From Endomicrobium sp. (GTDB taxonomy: Bacteria; Elusimicrobiota; Endomicrobiia; Endomicrobiales; Endomicrobiaceae): a stretch of 59,050 nt of DNA. The first letter of the stretch is position 1; each line of letters opens with the position of its first letter. A model generated the notes under the pieces. That model worked only from the letters and a program-made list of their open reading frames with translations, was not told where the DNA came from and did not search any database. Positions 5,048-9,761 of this stretch are shown piece by piece. The translations under genes were made by a program, and so were the position numbers. Where the stretch lies: positions 1-59,050 of the forward strand of contig JAITTL010000030.1 in NCBI GenBank assembly GCA_031286985.1, given 5' to 3'.

Positions 5048-5209
5048 ATGGAAAAATGGAAATGTTCTTTGTGTGGGTATGTCTATGATCCAGCTGTAGG
5101 CATTCCTGAGGATGGGATAGCACCAGGAACGACATTTGAGCAACTACCTGATGATTGGCTGTGTCCTTTGTGCAACGCTTCAAAAGTTGTTTTCGAAAAA
5201 GAAGAATGA
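5048..5209 (+). CDS. Rubredoxin
   Basis: The 53-residue protein is a complete rubredoxin: [10 protein letters not shown] and LCPLCNASK give the two CxxC(G) knuckles that bind one iron, with the aromatic core and acidic surface typical of the family. It carries single electrons to oxygen- and superoxide-reducing enzymes in anaerobes. A strong SD (GGGAGGGGG) precedes the ATG. The iscS-like gene starts four bases after its stop, so the two are almost certainly co-transcribed, and likely partners (flavodiiron protein, superoxide reductase, rubrerythrin) follow within 4.5 kb. Confidence 0.95.
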
Positions 5210-5213
5210 ATCT

Positions 5214-6416
5214 ATGAAACAGATATACCTAGATAATCAGTCAAACACTGTGCTTGATGGAAGGGTTTTAGGTGCTATGGAGCCCTTCTTTGTCGAGTTT
5301 TATGGAAATCCACAAAGTGTTTATTTTTTAGGTTCTGTTTCAAAAGATGCTCTTGAGACGGCAAGGACACAAGTTGCAGATTTAATCAATGCCACCTCAA
5401 AAGAAATTATTTTTACCTCCTGCGGCACAGAATCAAACAATTTAGCTATAAAAGGTATCGCAAACGCTTTAAAAGTTAGAGGGAATCATATTGTTGTTTC
5501 TGCTATTGAGCATTTTTCTGTGTTAAATTCGGTGAAAAAACTACAAAAAGAGGGATTTGAGGTAACGTATTTGCCGGTTGACTCTAAAGGAAACGTATTG
5601 GGATCCGAGTTAAAAAAAGCTTTGAGAGGCGATACCATTTTGGTGTCTGTGCAGTATGCAAATCCTGAAATTGGGACAATCCAGAACATAAAGGAATTAG
5701 TTTCTATAGTCAAGAACGGTAAATCAAAAAATTTCGTTGTTTTTCATACTGATGCAGTCAGTGCTTGTGGCGCTATTTCAGTTGATGTTCAAGATTTGCA
5801 AGTTGATGCTTTAACTTTTTCGTCTTCTGTGATGTACGGGCCTAAAGGGGCAGCAGCTCTCTATCTTAAAGATGGTATAAAAATTATCCCGCAAATTGAT
5901 GGTGGTGTTCAAGAAAATTCGAGACGGGCTGGCACTGAAAATCTTCCAGCTATTGTTGGTTTTGGAAAAGCTTGTGAAATTGCAAAATTGGAAACTGCGA
6001 AAAACGATAAAATTATTAAAAAATTAAGAGATAAATTTATTGCGGAATTGCCAAACAAAATAGAACACATTTATTTAAACGGAGCTTTAGAAAATCGTTT
6101 GCCTGGCAATATAAATTTCTCAATAGAGTTTGTTGAAGGTGAGGCACTGTTTCTACTTTTAGATGCCAAAGGTATTATAGCTGCAAGCGGTTCTGCATGT
6201 GCTAATAAGAATCTTAAATTTTCGCATGTTCTTGATGCTATCGGTGCGGATACTGCTGTTGGTCAGGGTTCAATTATATTTACTTTGTCAAAGTTTAACA
6301 CGGAAGAAGATGTAGACCATGTTTTAGAGGAATTCCCCAAAATTGTTAAAAAATTGAGAAATATGTCTCCTTTGTATTCATTTTTTATGCAAACTGGAAA
6401 CAGGAAAACTTTGTGA
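5214..6416 (+). CDS. IscS/NifS-like protein lacking the PLP-binding lysine
   Basis: Fold type I cysteine desulfurase family, 400 residues from the ATG at 5214. Conserved: YLDNQSNT start, TSCGTESNN (68-76), His100, Asp180, GPKG (209-212), RRAGTEN (237-243), and the catalytic loop SGSACANK with Cys329. Not conserved: the SAHK motif whose lysine binds PLP (Lys206 of E. coli IscS) reads SSSV, with Val206; Gln183 is Ser183; NNEIG reads NPEIG (Pro151). It therefore probably cannot hold PLP or extract sulfur from cysteine in the normal way. The overall sequence, including its MSPLY end, resembles the Archaeoglobus fulgidus IscS that I recall being reported as lysine-less. With iscU downstream, a scaffold partner role or sulfide-dependent assembly is likely. 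Confidence 0.88.
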   Translation: MKQIYLDNQSNTVLDGRVLGAMEPFFVEFYGNPQSVYFLGSVSKDALETARTQVADLINATSKEIIFTSCGTESNNLAIKGIANALKVRGNHIVVSAIEHFSVLNSVKKLQKEGFEVTYLPVDSKGNVLGSELKKALRGDTILVSVQYANPEIGTIQNIKELVSIVKNGKSKNFVVFHTDAVSACGAISVDVQDLQVDALTFSSSVMYGPKGAAALYLKDGIKIIPQIDGGVQENSRRAGTENLPAIVGFGKACEIAKLETAKNDKIIKKLRDKFIAELPNKIEHIYLNGALENRLPGNINFSIEFVEGEALFLLLDAKGIIAASGSACANKNLKFSHVLDAIGADTAVGQGSIIFTLSKFNTEEDVDHVLEEFPKIVKKLRNMSPLYSFFMQTGNRKTL

Positions 6417-6633
6417 ATTTAGGTAGTTAGTATGATGCTAGATGTTAGATGATGTTAAAGTGGTTTTTGTTGATGAGCCTTAGGAGTTAATGTGGTGGGT
6501 AGATAGGCGTAGGAAGGGACGCACAGAACAAGGTTTTTAGTTTTACGGTTGTATATGTATAACTAGCATTCACATGTGAAATTAGATACTGATTCATTTT
6601 AATAGATAGCTAGGATTCTGGAGGGAACCTTTA
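6417..6633. other. Intergenic gap with a 12-base palindrome
   Basis: The gap between the iscS-like gene and iscU has no recognisable gene. It contains the perfect palindrome TTCACATGTGAA at 6569-6580, about 55 bases before the iscU start, which could be a regulator site. A GGAGGG SD precedes iscU. Confidence 0.3.
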
Positions 6634-7209
6634 ATGTTTTATTCGAAAGAAGTTATGGATCATTTTTCAAATCCACGAAATGTAGGAGAAATAAAAGAGG
6701 CTGATGGTGTTGGAGAAATAGGTAATCCTGTATGCGGTGATATGATGACTTTCTACGTAAAAATCAGTGATAATAGAATTGAAGATGTTAAATTCAAAAC
6801 TTTTGGTTGTGGTGCGGCAATAGCTGTTTCCTCTATGGTTTCAGAGATGGCGTTTGGGAAAACGCTCGAAGAGGCTATGAATATCACAAACGCATCTGTT
6901 GCAAAGGCTTTGGGTGGGCTTCCTCCAAACAAAATGCATTGTTCGAACCTTGGAGCAGATGCGTTACATAAAGCTATTGAACATTACAAGAGTAAACAAG
7001 GGCAACAACATGTATCTAAAAGTCAAAGTTGTTCATGTCCTCTTTGCGAAACTGAGCTAAAAAATAAATGTACAAGTCCTAGTTTTTGCAAGCCGTGTTG
7101 TTCCAGTGGAAATAAAAACGTTGTTATCTGTTCCGTTTGCAAGGCTGAATATTTAGCCGAATACTCTGAGTGTCCCTCCTGTTTTGCAGCAAAAAAGAAT
7201 GACGTGTAG
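6634..7209 (+). CDS. iscU: IscU-type Fe-S scaffold with cysteine-rich C-terminal extension
   Basis: Residues 1-120 are a complete IscU domain with the three cluster-ligand cysteines Cys34 (GNPVCGD), Cys59 (FGCGAA) and Cys103 (MHCSNLG) and the conserved Asp36. The HscA-recognition motif LPPVK of E. coli reads LPPNK. Residues 121-191 are an unusual tail with eleven cysteines, ending in a CxxC-x10-CxxC zinc-ribbon or rubredoxin-like knuckle pair (166-183). The protein builds and hands over [2Fe-2S] clusters; the tail could store metal, bind sulfur or dock a partner. The neighbouring gene encodes its expected partner IscS, in a form lacking the PLP lysine. Confidence 0.9.
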   Translation: MFYSKEVMDHFSNPRNVGEIKEADGVGEIGNPVCGDMMTFYVKISDNRIEDVKFKTFGCGAAIAVSSMVSEMAFGKTLEEAMNITNASVAKALGGLPPNKMHCSNLGADALHKAIEHYKSKQGQQHVSKSQSCSCPLCETELKNKCTSPSFCKPCCSSGNKNVVICSVCKAEYLAEYSECPSCFAAKKNDV

Positions 7210-7250
7210 TCTTCAAGCGTGATCATCTGTAAAAAAAAGAGGTTTTCATC

Positions 7251-8453
7251 ATGGCAGCTAGATTAATAAAAGATGGTGTTTATTCAGTTGGTGCTGTGGA
7301 CTGGAATGAGAGACGCTTCCATGGATACACATATGCAACCAAAAGGGGTGTTACTTACAATTCGTATCTAATTGTTGATGAAAAAATAACTTTAATTGAT
7401 ACTGTACGTGGAGGTTTTGAAAATGAACTGATAGGAAATATAAAAGAAGTTGTTGACCCTTCAAAAATAGACACAATAATCATTAATCATATTGAGCCTG
7501 ATCATTCTGGGGCGTTCCCTGAGATGTTGAAAACATGTCCTAATGCAAAAATTTATGGAACAAAAACAGCAAAATCCGGACTTTTAAAATATTATGGGTC
7601 GGTCGGCGATTGGACTACCGTAAAATCTGAACAAAGTCTAAACATAGGTAAAAGAATTTTAAATTTTATAGATGTACCGATGATTCACTGGCCTGATAGC
7701 ATGTTCACATATTCTGCTTATGATAAAATTTTATTCTCAAACGATGGATTCGGCCAACATTATGCAACTAATAAAATTTTTGATGATGAAGTTAATTTCA
7801 ATGATTTGATGGATGAAGCGCAAAAATACTATGCCAACATACTATGGCCTTTTAGCCTACTAGTCGCTTCAAAACTTACTGCCATGAGTAAATTGAATCT
7901 TGATATTAAATTGATAGCTCCAAGTCACGGATTGATATGGCGTGAACATGTGCAGGAAATTATAAAAACATATTTTTACTGGTCGTCAAACTCATGTAAA
8001 AACAGAGTTGCAGTTATTTATGAAACTATGTGGAATTCTACTGAAAAAATGGCAAGAAAAATTGTGGAAGGAATAACTTCTCAAGGGGTTGAAGCTGCTT
8101 TATTTGATGTAACAAAAAATGACAGAACTGATATTGCCTCATATATGTTAGATGCCAAAGGTTGGATTTTTGGATCATCAACACATGATGGTGAAATGCT
8201 TCCGGTGATTGCGGGATTTTTACATTTCCTTAAAGGTTCAAAAGCAAAAGGACGTAAATCTTTTGCTTTTGGGTCTTATGGTTGGAACTGTGGAGCGATA
8301 AAAAACATTGAAGATATGGTTTCCGGTATTACAACACTTAGTCAACCTTTAAAAATTGTTTTTAATCCTACACAAGAAGAATTGGATATGTGTTTTAAAG
8401 CTGGTAAAGATTTTGCTTTAGAAATAAAAGATAGTAAGCTTTACGGCCAGTAG
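7251..8453 (+). CDS. fprA: Flavodiiron protein (oxygen/NO reductase)
   Basis: The 400-residue protein has an N-terminal metallo-beta-lactamase-like diiron domain (ligands in HIEPDH at 80-85, then SNDGFGQH and SHGLIWR) and a C-terminal flavodoxin domain starting near RVAVIYETMWNST. It reduces O2 to water, or NO to N2O, with electrons from rubredoxin, in the cytoplasm of anaerobes. There is no extra rubredoxin domain, so the separate rubredoxin at 5048 is a likely donor. A GAGG SD lies upstream; the gene follows iscU after about 40 bases. Confidence 0.95.
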   Translation: MAARLIKDGVYSVGAVDWNERRFHGYTYATKRGVTYNSYLIVDEKITLIDTVRGGFENELIGNIKEVVDPSKIDTIIINHIEPDHSGAFPEMLKTCPNAKIYGTKTAKSGLLKYYGSVGDWTTVKSEQSLNIGKRILNFIDVPMIHWPDSMFTYSAYDKILFSNDGFGQHYATNKIFDDEVNFNDLMDEAQKYYANILWPFSLLVASKLTAMSKLNLDIKLIAPSHGLIWREHVQEIIKTYFYWSSNSCKNRVAVIYETMWNSTEKMARKIVEGITSQGVEAALFDVTKNDRTDIASYMLDAKGWIFGSSTHDGEMLPVIAGFLHFLKGSKAKGRKSFAFGSYGWNCGAIKNIEDMVSGITTLSQPLKIVFNPTQEELDMCFKAGKDFALEIKDSKLYGQ

Positions 8454-8541
8454 TTACAATCTTTGTTTTAAAGATTCCTTAATTATCTGTCGAATTTTGT
8501 ATTTTGTTGGAGTGTGTTTGCGCTTAAAGAGGAGATGTCTC

Positions 8542-8985
8542 ATGAAAGGTTTGGTGTGCAAAGTTTGTGGTTATGTTGCGTTGGATGGGAACGAAGATTT
8601 ATGTCCTGTTTGCCAGTTAAAGAATGTATTTGAAAAGAAAGAAGATGCTTATAGGGCTTTTGATTTTAAAGCGACTTCGGGTGAAACAGAAAAAAAGCAT
8701 ATTCCGCATTTTACAATTGTTCAAAAATGTGGTTTAACTCCGCAATCGTGTGATGGTGTAGGTGTTCACATAAAAATAGGGGAAATTTTACACCCCTCTA
8801 CACCTGAACATTATATCGACACTATAACTTTTTATGTAGATAATAAATTGGTTTCAAATGTAATGCTGACGGCGGATGCATGTCCTGTAGCTGCTATTCA
8901 TTTGAAGAATGATGTAAAATGTAAGGTCCAAGTTATTGAAAATTGTAATGTCCATGGTAGATGGTTTAATGAGATAGAGAAGTAA
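8542..8985 (+). CDS. Superoxide reductase with N-terminal rubredoxin-like knuckle
   Basis: The 147-residue protein starts with a cysteine knuckle CKVCGY...CPVC (residues 6-29) that resembles a rubredoxin or desulforedoxin site, followed by a neelaredoxin domain with the iron ligands in KKHIP, HPSTPEHYI and the ENCNVHG loop (Cys and His). It reduces superoxide to hydrogen peroxide without making O2. The ATG at 8542 is chosen because a GGAG SD precedes it and the knuckle begins five residues in. It continues the oxygen-defence run with the flavodiiron protein and rubrerythrin. Confidence 0.9.
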   Translation: MKGLVCKVCGYVALDGNEDLCPVCQLKNVFEKKEDAYRAFDFKATSGETEKKHIPHFTIVQKCGLTPQSCDGVGVHIKIGEILHPSTPEHYIDTITFYVDNKLVSNVMLTADACPVAAIHLKNDVKCKVQVIENCNVHGRWFNEIEK

Positions 8986-9084
8986 AATAGATTCCTCTCA
9001 TTAAAATCTCTAACTGGTTTTTGGCCAATAAATCCGATTTGTTTAGTTTAGAGAACATTGTATGCTAGTTAAAGAGGTTTAAAG

Positions 9085-9114
9085 TAATATCAGGTAATAT
9101 ATATAGTGATATTA
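9085..9114. promoter_or_regulatory. Inverted repeat upstream of rubrerythrin
   Basis: TAATATCA and TGATATTA form a perfect 8-base inverted repeat with a 14-base AT-rich centre, about 70 bases before the rubrerythrin start. Its place before a peroxide-defence gene suggests an operator, but it does not match a regulator box I know. Confidence 0.35.
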
Positions 9115-9182
9115 TGGATGGAAAGAGGTTTAACGATTTTGTGCGTGTTTAATTTTGCACATATAAGGAGGCGGTGGGAATC

Positions 9183-9761
9183 ATGCTTAAATCAATTAAG
9201 GGAACGAAAACGGAGAAACATTTACTAACAGCATTTGCGGGCGAATCTCAGGCAAAGATGAGATACACTTATTTTTCTTCAAAAGCAAAAAAGGAAGGAT
9301 TTGAGCAGATTGCTGCAGTTTTTATGGAAACTGCTGATAATGAAAAAGAACATGCAAAAAGATTTTTTAGTTTTCTAGAAGGGGGATCCCTTGAAATTAC
9401 AGCAACTTTTCCCGCAGGAATCGTTGACAATACCATTAAAAATTTAGAATTTTCAGTTGTTGGTGAGAATGAAGAACATACAAAACTTTATCCCCAGGCA
9501 ATCCAAGTCGCTGACGAAGAAGGATTTCATGAAATAGCTGAATGCTTTAGGAGAATTTGCGTAGCTGAAAAATATCATGAATTGAGATATTTGAAATTTC
9601 TTGAAAATCTTCAAAATGACAAAGTATTCAAAAAAAACATACCTATAAAATGGAGATGTCGCAATTGTGGTTACGTATATGAAAGCAAAGAGGCTTTAGA
9701 TGAGTGTCCTGCGTGTTTGCATGGCAAGGCATACATTGAGGAATTGGCTGCTAATTTCTAA
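9183..9761 (+). CDS. rbr: Rubrerythrin
   Basis: The 192-residue protein has the four-helix ferritin-like diiron domain (KGTKTEKHLLTAFAGESQA at the start, then ETADNEKEHAKRF and later EEGFHEIA and EKYHE) and a C-terminal rubredoxin domain (CRNCGYVYE, CPACLHGKA). It reduces hydrogen peroxide with electrons passed through the rubredoxin centre, protecting the cytoplasm of anaerobes. The ATG at 9183 matches the family N-terminus; an AGGAGG SD lies about 11 bases upstream. It ends the oxygen-defence island. Confidence 0.95.
   Translation: MLKSIKGTKTEKHLLTAFAGESQAKMRYTYFSSKAKKEGFEQIAAVFMETADNEKEHAKRFFSFLEGGSLEITATFPAGIVDNTIKNLEFSVVGENEEHTKLYPQAIQVADEEGFHEIAECFRRICVAEKYHELRYLKFLENLQNDKVFKKNIPIKWRCRNCGYVYESKEALDECPACLHGKAYIEELAANF

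Follow-up and report, generated by a model that had tools for sequence, protein, structure and literature searches.

An IscS homologue without the PLP lysine, conserved beside the only IscU found in an Endomicrobium genome, as a probable docking and cluster-assembly partner

The desulfurase activity of Escherichia coli IscS is lost in the K206A and Q183E mutants, whereas the R354K mutant is active, and some PLP is retained by the K206A protein (PMC9978102). IscU docks on the C-terminus of the E. coli enzyme at residues 379-391 (PMC2854127). The IscS of Archaeoglobus fulgidus has no desulfurase activity (PMC7585200), and its cysteine helps to coordinate the [2Fe-2S] cluster bound by IscU (PMC9769115). 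The complex of the two archaeal proteins is drawn with PLP despite the missing lysine (PMC9769115, Fig. 1 legend). Our literature search found no description of a bacterial lysine-less IscS and no experiment on one.

A stretch of 59,050 nucleotides from Endomicrobium sp. (assembly GCA_031286985.1, contig JAITTL010000030.1), here called the window, was analysed. At 5214..6416 of the + strand, on which all features described below lie, it carries an intact, full-length open reading frame of 400 amino acids that encodes an IscS/NifS homologue. We use IscS* for this lysine-less IscS homologue or pseudo-desulfurase, and Lys+ and Lys- for lysine-bearing and lysine-less proteins. Residues are numbered after E. 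coli IscS (NC_000913 iscS) by alignment. As the preliminary description had read from the DNA, the codon at 5829..5831 is GTG and puts Val206, within TFSSSVMYGPKG, where the PLP lysine Lys206 stands in the E. coli enzyme, Gln183 is replaced by Ser183 and Asn155 by Pro151, and the persulfide cysteine Cys328 is kept as Cys329 in an intact frame. His205 is also replaced, by Ser205. Two features had escaped that description: the arginine that holds the substrate carboxylate, Arg354 (role from PMC9978102), is Ile355 here (6276..6278), and the PLP-site residues Asp180 and His104 (His100) are retained, as are Thr76 (Thr72) and Thr243 (Thr241). Since Lys206, Gln183, Asn155 and Arg354 are all gone, IscS* should not desulfurate cysteine. 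The protein had also been described as PLP-free, which our data do not show. His104, Asp180 and Thr243 would be unneeded in a pure scaffold, so non-covalent PLP binding by IscS* is possible, and the A. fulgidus complex and the E. coli K206A protein both speak against equating the missing lysine with missing PLP.

The protein was matched by the Pfam family Aminotran_5 (E 1.5e-67) and stayed under every NCBIfam desulfurase cut-off, reaching 464.5 of 530.75 bits for TIGR03402 and 372.6 of 643.2 for TIGR02006. Its structure was predicted as a monomer with AlphaFold2, with the E. coli IscS row left out of the input alignment. The model showed a confident IscS fold (pLDDT 89.6) and superimposed on structures of human Nfs1 complexes, E. 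coli IscS-IscU and A. fulgidus IscS-IscU with TM values of 0.88-0.94. The cysteine loop, Cys329 to Lys335 (6198..6218), was modelled with low confidence (pLDDT <50 at 328-333) and is probably mobile.

Conservation was followed in 41 genomes, the window's genome and 40 relatives, many of which are incomplete MAGs. In all 37 readable IscS* sequences (the window's and those of 36 relatives) the lysine position was occupied by V, A, T, Q or M and never by K, and the loop cysteine was kept in each of the 37. The sequencing error at 5820-5835 that the preliminary description had considered is thereby excluded. Within the genus, seven pairwise comparisons of iscS* gave dN/dS values of 0.08-0.20, which points to long purifying selection on the gene. 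The gene is absent from one member of the order, G027 (99% complete), which has IscU and a Lys+ IscS; at its locus (L183, G027:C23) iscS* is missing from between rubredoxin and iscU. Two further genomes with IscU and a Lys+ IscS, G019 (85% complete) and G008 (52% complete), are perhaps also without it. The loss in G027 indicates that iscS* is dispensable when the canonical IscS is present. The IscU of G027 has an unrelated Cys/His-rich tail. The loss in one to three relatives is what a decaying copy or an assembly artefact might lead one to expect, but the intact frame in relatives, the low dN/dS, the invariant cysteine, the conserved operon and a Lys- clade that extends over about nine phyla leave this explanation a negligible chance; it is already refuted by the conservation data.

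The linkage of the lost residues was examined in 112 Lys+ and 68 Lys- homologues, a largely deduplicated set of related sequences that do not count as independent events. Arg354 was present in all 109 Lys+ sequences that have a residue at this position and in none of the 68 Lys- sequences; Gln183 was found in 112/112 and 4/68, respectively. Cys328, on the other hand, was retained in 68/68 Lys- sequences. The joint loss of Lys206 and Arg354 is common to the bacterial and the archaeal Lys- groups. The Lys- sequences carry basic residues (K/R) three and six positions after the cysteine, at 331 (58/68) and 334 (64/68), where Lys+ sequences mostly have Gly and Glu/Asp; in the window these are Lys332 and Lys335. 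One may ask whether IscS* is a PLP enzyme that uses one of these, or another lysine, for a Schiff base or a different reaction, and the retained Asp180, His104 and Thr243 would suit such an enzyme. This is highly improbable, as the substrate arginine and Gln183 are gone as well and the loop bears the acceptor cysteine and is of low model confidence. A search of type-specific columns for an alternative PLP lysine found enrichment only at the loop positions 331 and 334 and, outside the PLP-site motifs, at 219, 260 and 359, and no pocket lysine enriched in the Lys- type.

A tree of IscS homologues was computed after removal of the active-site columns. All bacterial Lys- proteins fell into one clade of 29 rows with a support of 100/99, spanning about nine phyla. 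Taking the taxon as the record label as given, including MAG labels and binning, bacterial Lys- matches came from Omnitrophota, Dehalococcoidia, Acidobacteria/Aminicenantes, Nitrospirae, Smithella, Deltaproteobacteria, Planctomycetota, Clostridia (MAGs) and Aquificaceae, and archaeal ones from Methanoperedenaceae and Bathyarchaeota. The preliminary description had counted IscS* and the A. fulgidus protein as one group. In the tree, the latter grouped with archaeal Asp-type proteins (99/89) beside a Lys-bearing archaeal IscS (98/84), away from the bacterial clade. A joint clade of bacterial and archaeal Lys- proteins appeared in none of 200 bootstrap trees, which therefore need two losses, while a single origin was not rejected by the AU test (p 0.2). 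Most likely, judged from these trees, the lysine was lost in the bacterial clade separately from the archaeal loss.

The reading frame downstream of iscS*, at 6634..7209, encodes an IscU scaffold (Pfam NifU_N, E 2e-49) with a fused Cys-rich, zinc-ribbon-like tail. The spacer at 6417-6633 is 217 bases long, longer than in many relatives. This is the only IscU copy found in the window's genome (95% complete), in which neither SufB/D nor a member of the IscA family was found anywhere. Exactly one IscU was present in 38 of the 41 genomes, and SufB/D was absent in 40 of them. The proposed partnership with IscU was supported in the relatives, where iscU adjoins iscS* in 33/37 loci and a Lys+ iscS in 2/33. 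An IscS with an intact lysine, whose presence elsewhere in the genome had been left open, was also found: it is a canonical protein (G000:C20, L069:4662-5882) with the motifs SAHK, NNE and DSVQ and with Arg354. MnmA, which also draws on desulfurase sulfur, was found as well.

Among 150 genomes drawn evenly from the phylum, those belonging to the class nearly all had both a Lys+ IscS and IscS*, and among the phylum members fetched that lack IscS*, the canonical IscS adjoins IscU/NifU in most. Nearly all well-assembled IscS* genomes checked contained a Lys+ IscS or SufS. Where IscS* genomes were searched for a sole desulfurase homologue, another homologue, carrying an HK motif, was detected in G044, G060, G063 and G074; no further desulfurase homologue was recognised in G048 and G059, which are MAGs without completeness data, or in G172, where the gene lies near a contig end. 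The class member G133 has two lysine-less IscS proteins and a canonical one that adjoins iscU (L231, L232).

The C-terminal regions of the two paralogues differ. Counted from the LR motif, the C-terminus of the phylum's IscS* is long and conserved, with a median of 35 residues, whereas the docking tail of the Lys+ paralogues in genomes with IscS* is short (median 13) and that of Lys+ IscS in genomes where no IscS* was found is intermediate (median 24). In the window, the C-terminal helix at 6354..6413 corresponds to the segment by which E. coli IscS docks IscU. The simplest reading of these lengths is that docking may have been taken over by IscS* and catalysis left to the canonical copy.

Such complementarity, with catalysis lost from IscS* and the docking tail lost from the Lys+ IscS, would also fit a heterodimer in which one subunit makes the persulfide and the other docks IscU, or a role of IscS* as a regulator (activator, inhibitor or tether) of the Lys+ IscS. 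Loci L220-L228 and L230 include a genus of the same family with the gene order iscS(Lys+)-iscS*-iscU and, from another family, the order iscS*-iscU-iscS(Lys+); both clusters can be counted for this explanation. It is distinctly unlikely, however, with an identity of only 43% between IscS* and the Lys+ IscS in the window's genome and with the two iscS genes unlinked in most genomes.

As the source of the sulfur, the preliminary description had thought of free sulfide in an anaerobic habitat, and a PLP-free IscS* might build clusters directly from it together with IscU, leaving the Lys+ IscS for tRNA thiolation and other uses only. In E. coli that lacks IscS, H2S can supply IscU under anaerobic conditions (PMC13015791), and sulfide is the Fe-S sulfur donor in Methanococcus maripaludis (PMC10500019); most relatives have the Lys+ iscS away from iscU, and MnmA would be there to take its sulfur. 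Against this stand the Lys+ IscS or SufS in nearly all well-assembled genomes, the tandem of Lys+ iscS and iscS* in one genus, and the retained His104 and Asp180, which do not fit a complete loss of the PLP site. Direct assembly from sulfide is therefore unlikely, though it deserves to be weighed. The use of sulfide as such is possible; it need not be the source, because a Lys-bearing IscS or SufS is found in nearly every IscS* genome checked.

We favour, with a probability of about 60%, the reading that IscS* is a pseudo-desulfurase that serves as the docking and cluster-assembly partner of IscU and obtains its sulfur in trans from the canonical IscS or from sulfide. At the level of sequence, our data demonstrate the losses, their linkage, purifying selection, the pairing with the only IscU and the division of labour. 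A role in cluster assembly is suggested because the cysteine loop and the docking tail are kept and the gene is paired with the only IscU, and a role as co-scaffold by analogy with the A. fulgidus protein. IscS* would retain the IscS fold, the mobile cysteine loop and the IscU-docking C-terminus. It would form no Lys206-PLP aldimine and have no hold on cysteine through Arg354, and hence would not desulfurate. IscU would build its cluster on IscS* as a dimeric platform, and Cys329, with its new basic neighbours, would ligate the nascent cluster or pass sulfur on. The sulfur would arrive in trans; its most likely supplier is the canonical IscS, as persulfide or as released sulfide, and ambient sulfide might be an additional source.

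The Cys-rich tail of the window's IscU lies at 7018..7206. In most relatives its counterpart is a separate open reading frame after iscU, for example at L016:790-990, L031:3203-3403 and L098:5431-5772. This small protein is rich in Cys and consists of two halves that resemble zinc ribbons (CxCPxC..CxPC..CxxC..CPxC); within the phylum, it follows or is fused to most IscU proteins linked to IscS*. In a profile search it accompanied 58/81 IscU adjoining a Lys- IscS versus 3/73 adjoining a Lys+ IscS; the three latter loci, in two genomes, come from a family that has IscS* elsewhere in the genome. Among named records of other phyla, it was found with 6/16 IscU adjoining a Lys- IscS and with 0/50 adjoining a Lys+ IscS. 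The genus with the tandem iscS(Lys+)-iscS*-iscU is without it, as is the IscU of G027. No known function was identified for the protein; one guess is a part in the metal or redox chemistry of the scaffold. Across most of the phylum, IscS* ends in a His/acid-rich tail, AGPGTDYEHEHEH (e.g. L031, L034, L036, L039). The tail, which may bind metal next to IscU, was lost in some relatives and in the window's species, whose IscS* lacks it at 6413.

We tentatively extend the favoured reading to a two-paralogue Fe-S system, at somewhat less than even odds. In it, the Lys+ IscS would make the persulfide, and the Lys- IscS, together with IscU and the dedicated zinc-ribbon protein, would act as a co-scaffold without enzymatic activity, taking up sulfur or sulfide and providing a ligand for the nascent cluster. 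The position of the Lys+ gene far from iscU in many relatives, the absence of IscS* from G027 and perhaps from G019 and G008, and the kept His104, Asp180 and Thr243 were counted against the favoured reading.

The iscS*-iscU pair lies in a cluster of oxygen-defence genes at 5048-9761. Upstream is a rubredoxin gene (5048..5209; Pfam Rubredoxin, E 1.6e-23) with its stop 4 bases before the ATG of iscS*; rubredoxin is the neighbour in most members of the genus too. Downstream, profile matches identified a flavodiiron protein (oxygen/NO reductase; 7251..8453), a desulfoferrodoxin/superoxide-reductase-like protein (8542..8985) and a rubrerythrin (9180..9761).

Our results suggest that the non-catalytic role reported for IscS in Archaeoglobus is not the oddity of one archaeon. 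The same loss, most likely an independent one, marks a large bacterial clade, in which IscS* became the partner of the cell's only IscU. This would let the two roles of IscS, persulfide making and cluster building, be studied separately in proteins that occur in nature. Because annotation pipelines are likely to label IscS* as a cysteine desulfurase, tallies of Fe-S pathways in anaerobes may contain probable non-desulfurases.

Among the known systems, the A. fulgidus IscS (PDB 4EB5/4EB7/4HVK; D199K variant 4R5F) resembles IscS* in the missing PLP lysine and Arg354, the kept cysteine and the IscU partner. It differs in having Asp199 at the lysine position, where the IscS* type has V, Q, A, T or M, in belonging to the archaeal clade beside Lys-bearing archaeal IscS (AU p 0.2 for one origin), and in the loci of its archaeal relatives, where no zinc-ribbon partner was found. 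IscS1 of Methanosarcina acetivorans, likened here by its published description, is archaeal as well; like IscS* it lacks the catalytic lysine, is encoded in an iscSU cluster and coexists with an active IscS2 (PMC7585200). An Aquificaceae-like lysine-less IscS (PDB 9WFY, 9WFE, 9WFB, 9WF8, 9WEW, 9WER, 9WEP) belongs to the same bacterial clade as IscS*; the 9WFY protein grouped there with L117, has about 50% identity to IscS* and carries Leu for Lys206, Val for Arg354 and Pro for Gln183. The chains of these seven structures differ at Lys206, Arg354, Gln183 and neighbouring positions, as if canonical residues had been put back stepwise, and no paper on the series was found in our literature search. 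Unlike at the IscS* loci, no IscU was seen within the flanks examined of this protein's relatives. The canonical group I desulfurases IscS, NifS and Nfs1 share with IscS* the fold, the Cys328 loop, the IscU-docking C-terminus and the operon with iscU, but have Lys206, Gln183, Asn155 and Arg354. The ISC system has, in addition to the IscS-IscU pair, an IscA carrier, of which none was found in the window's genome. The MIS system (MisS-MisU), which is reportedly defined by phylogeny, comprises, by its description, no more than an IscS-IscU pair and lacks accessory isc genes, and in this respect is like the pair of IscS* and IscU.
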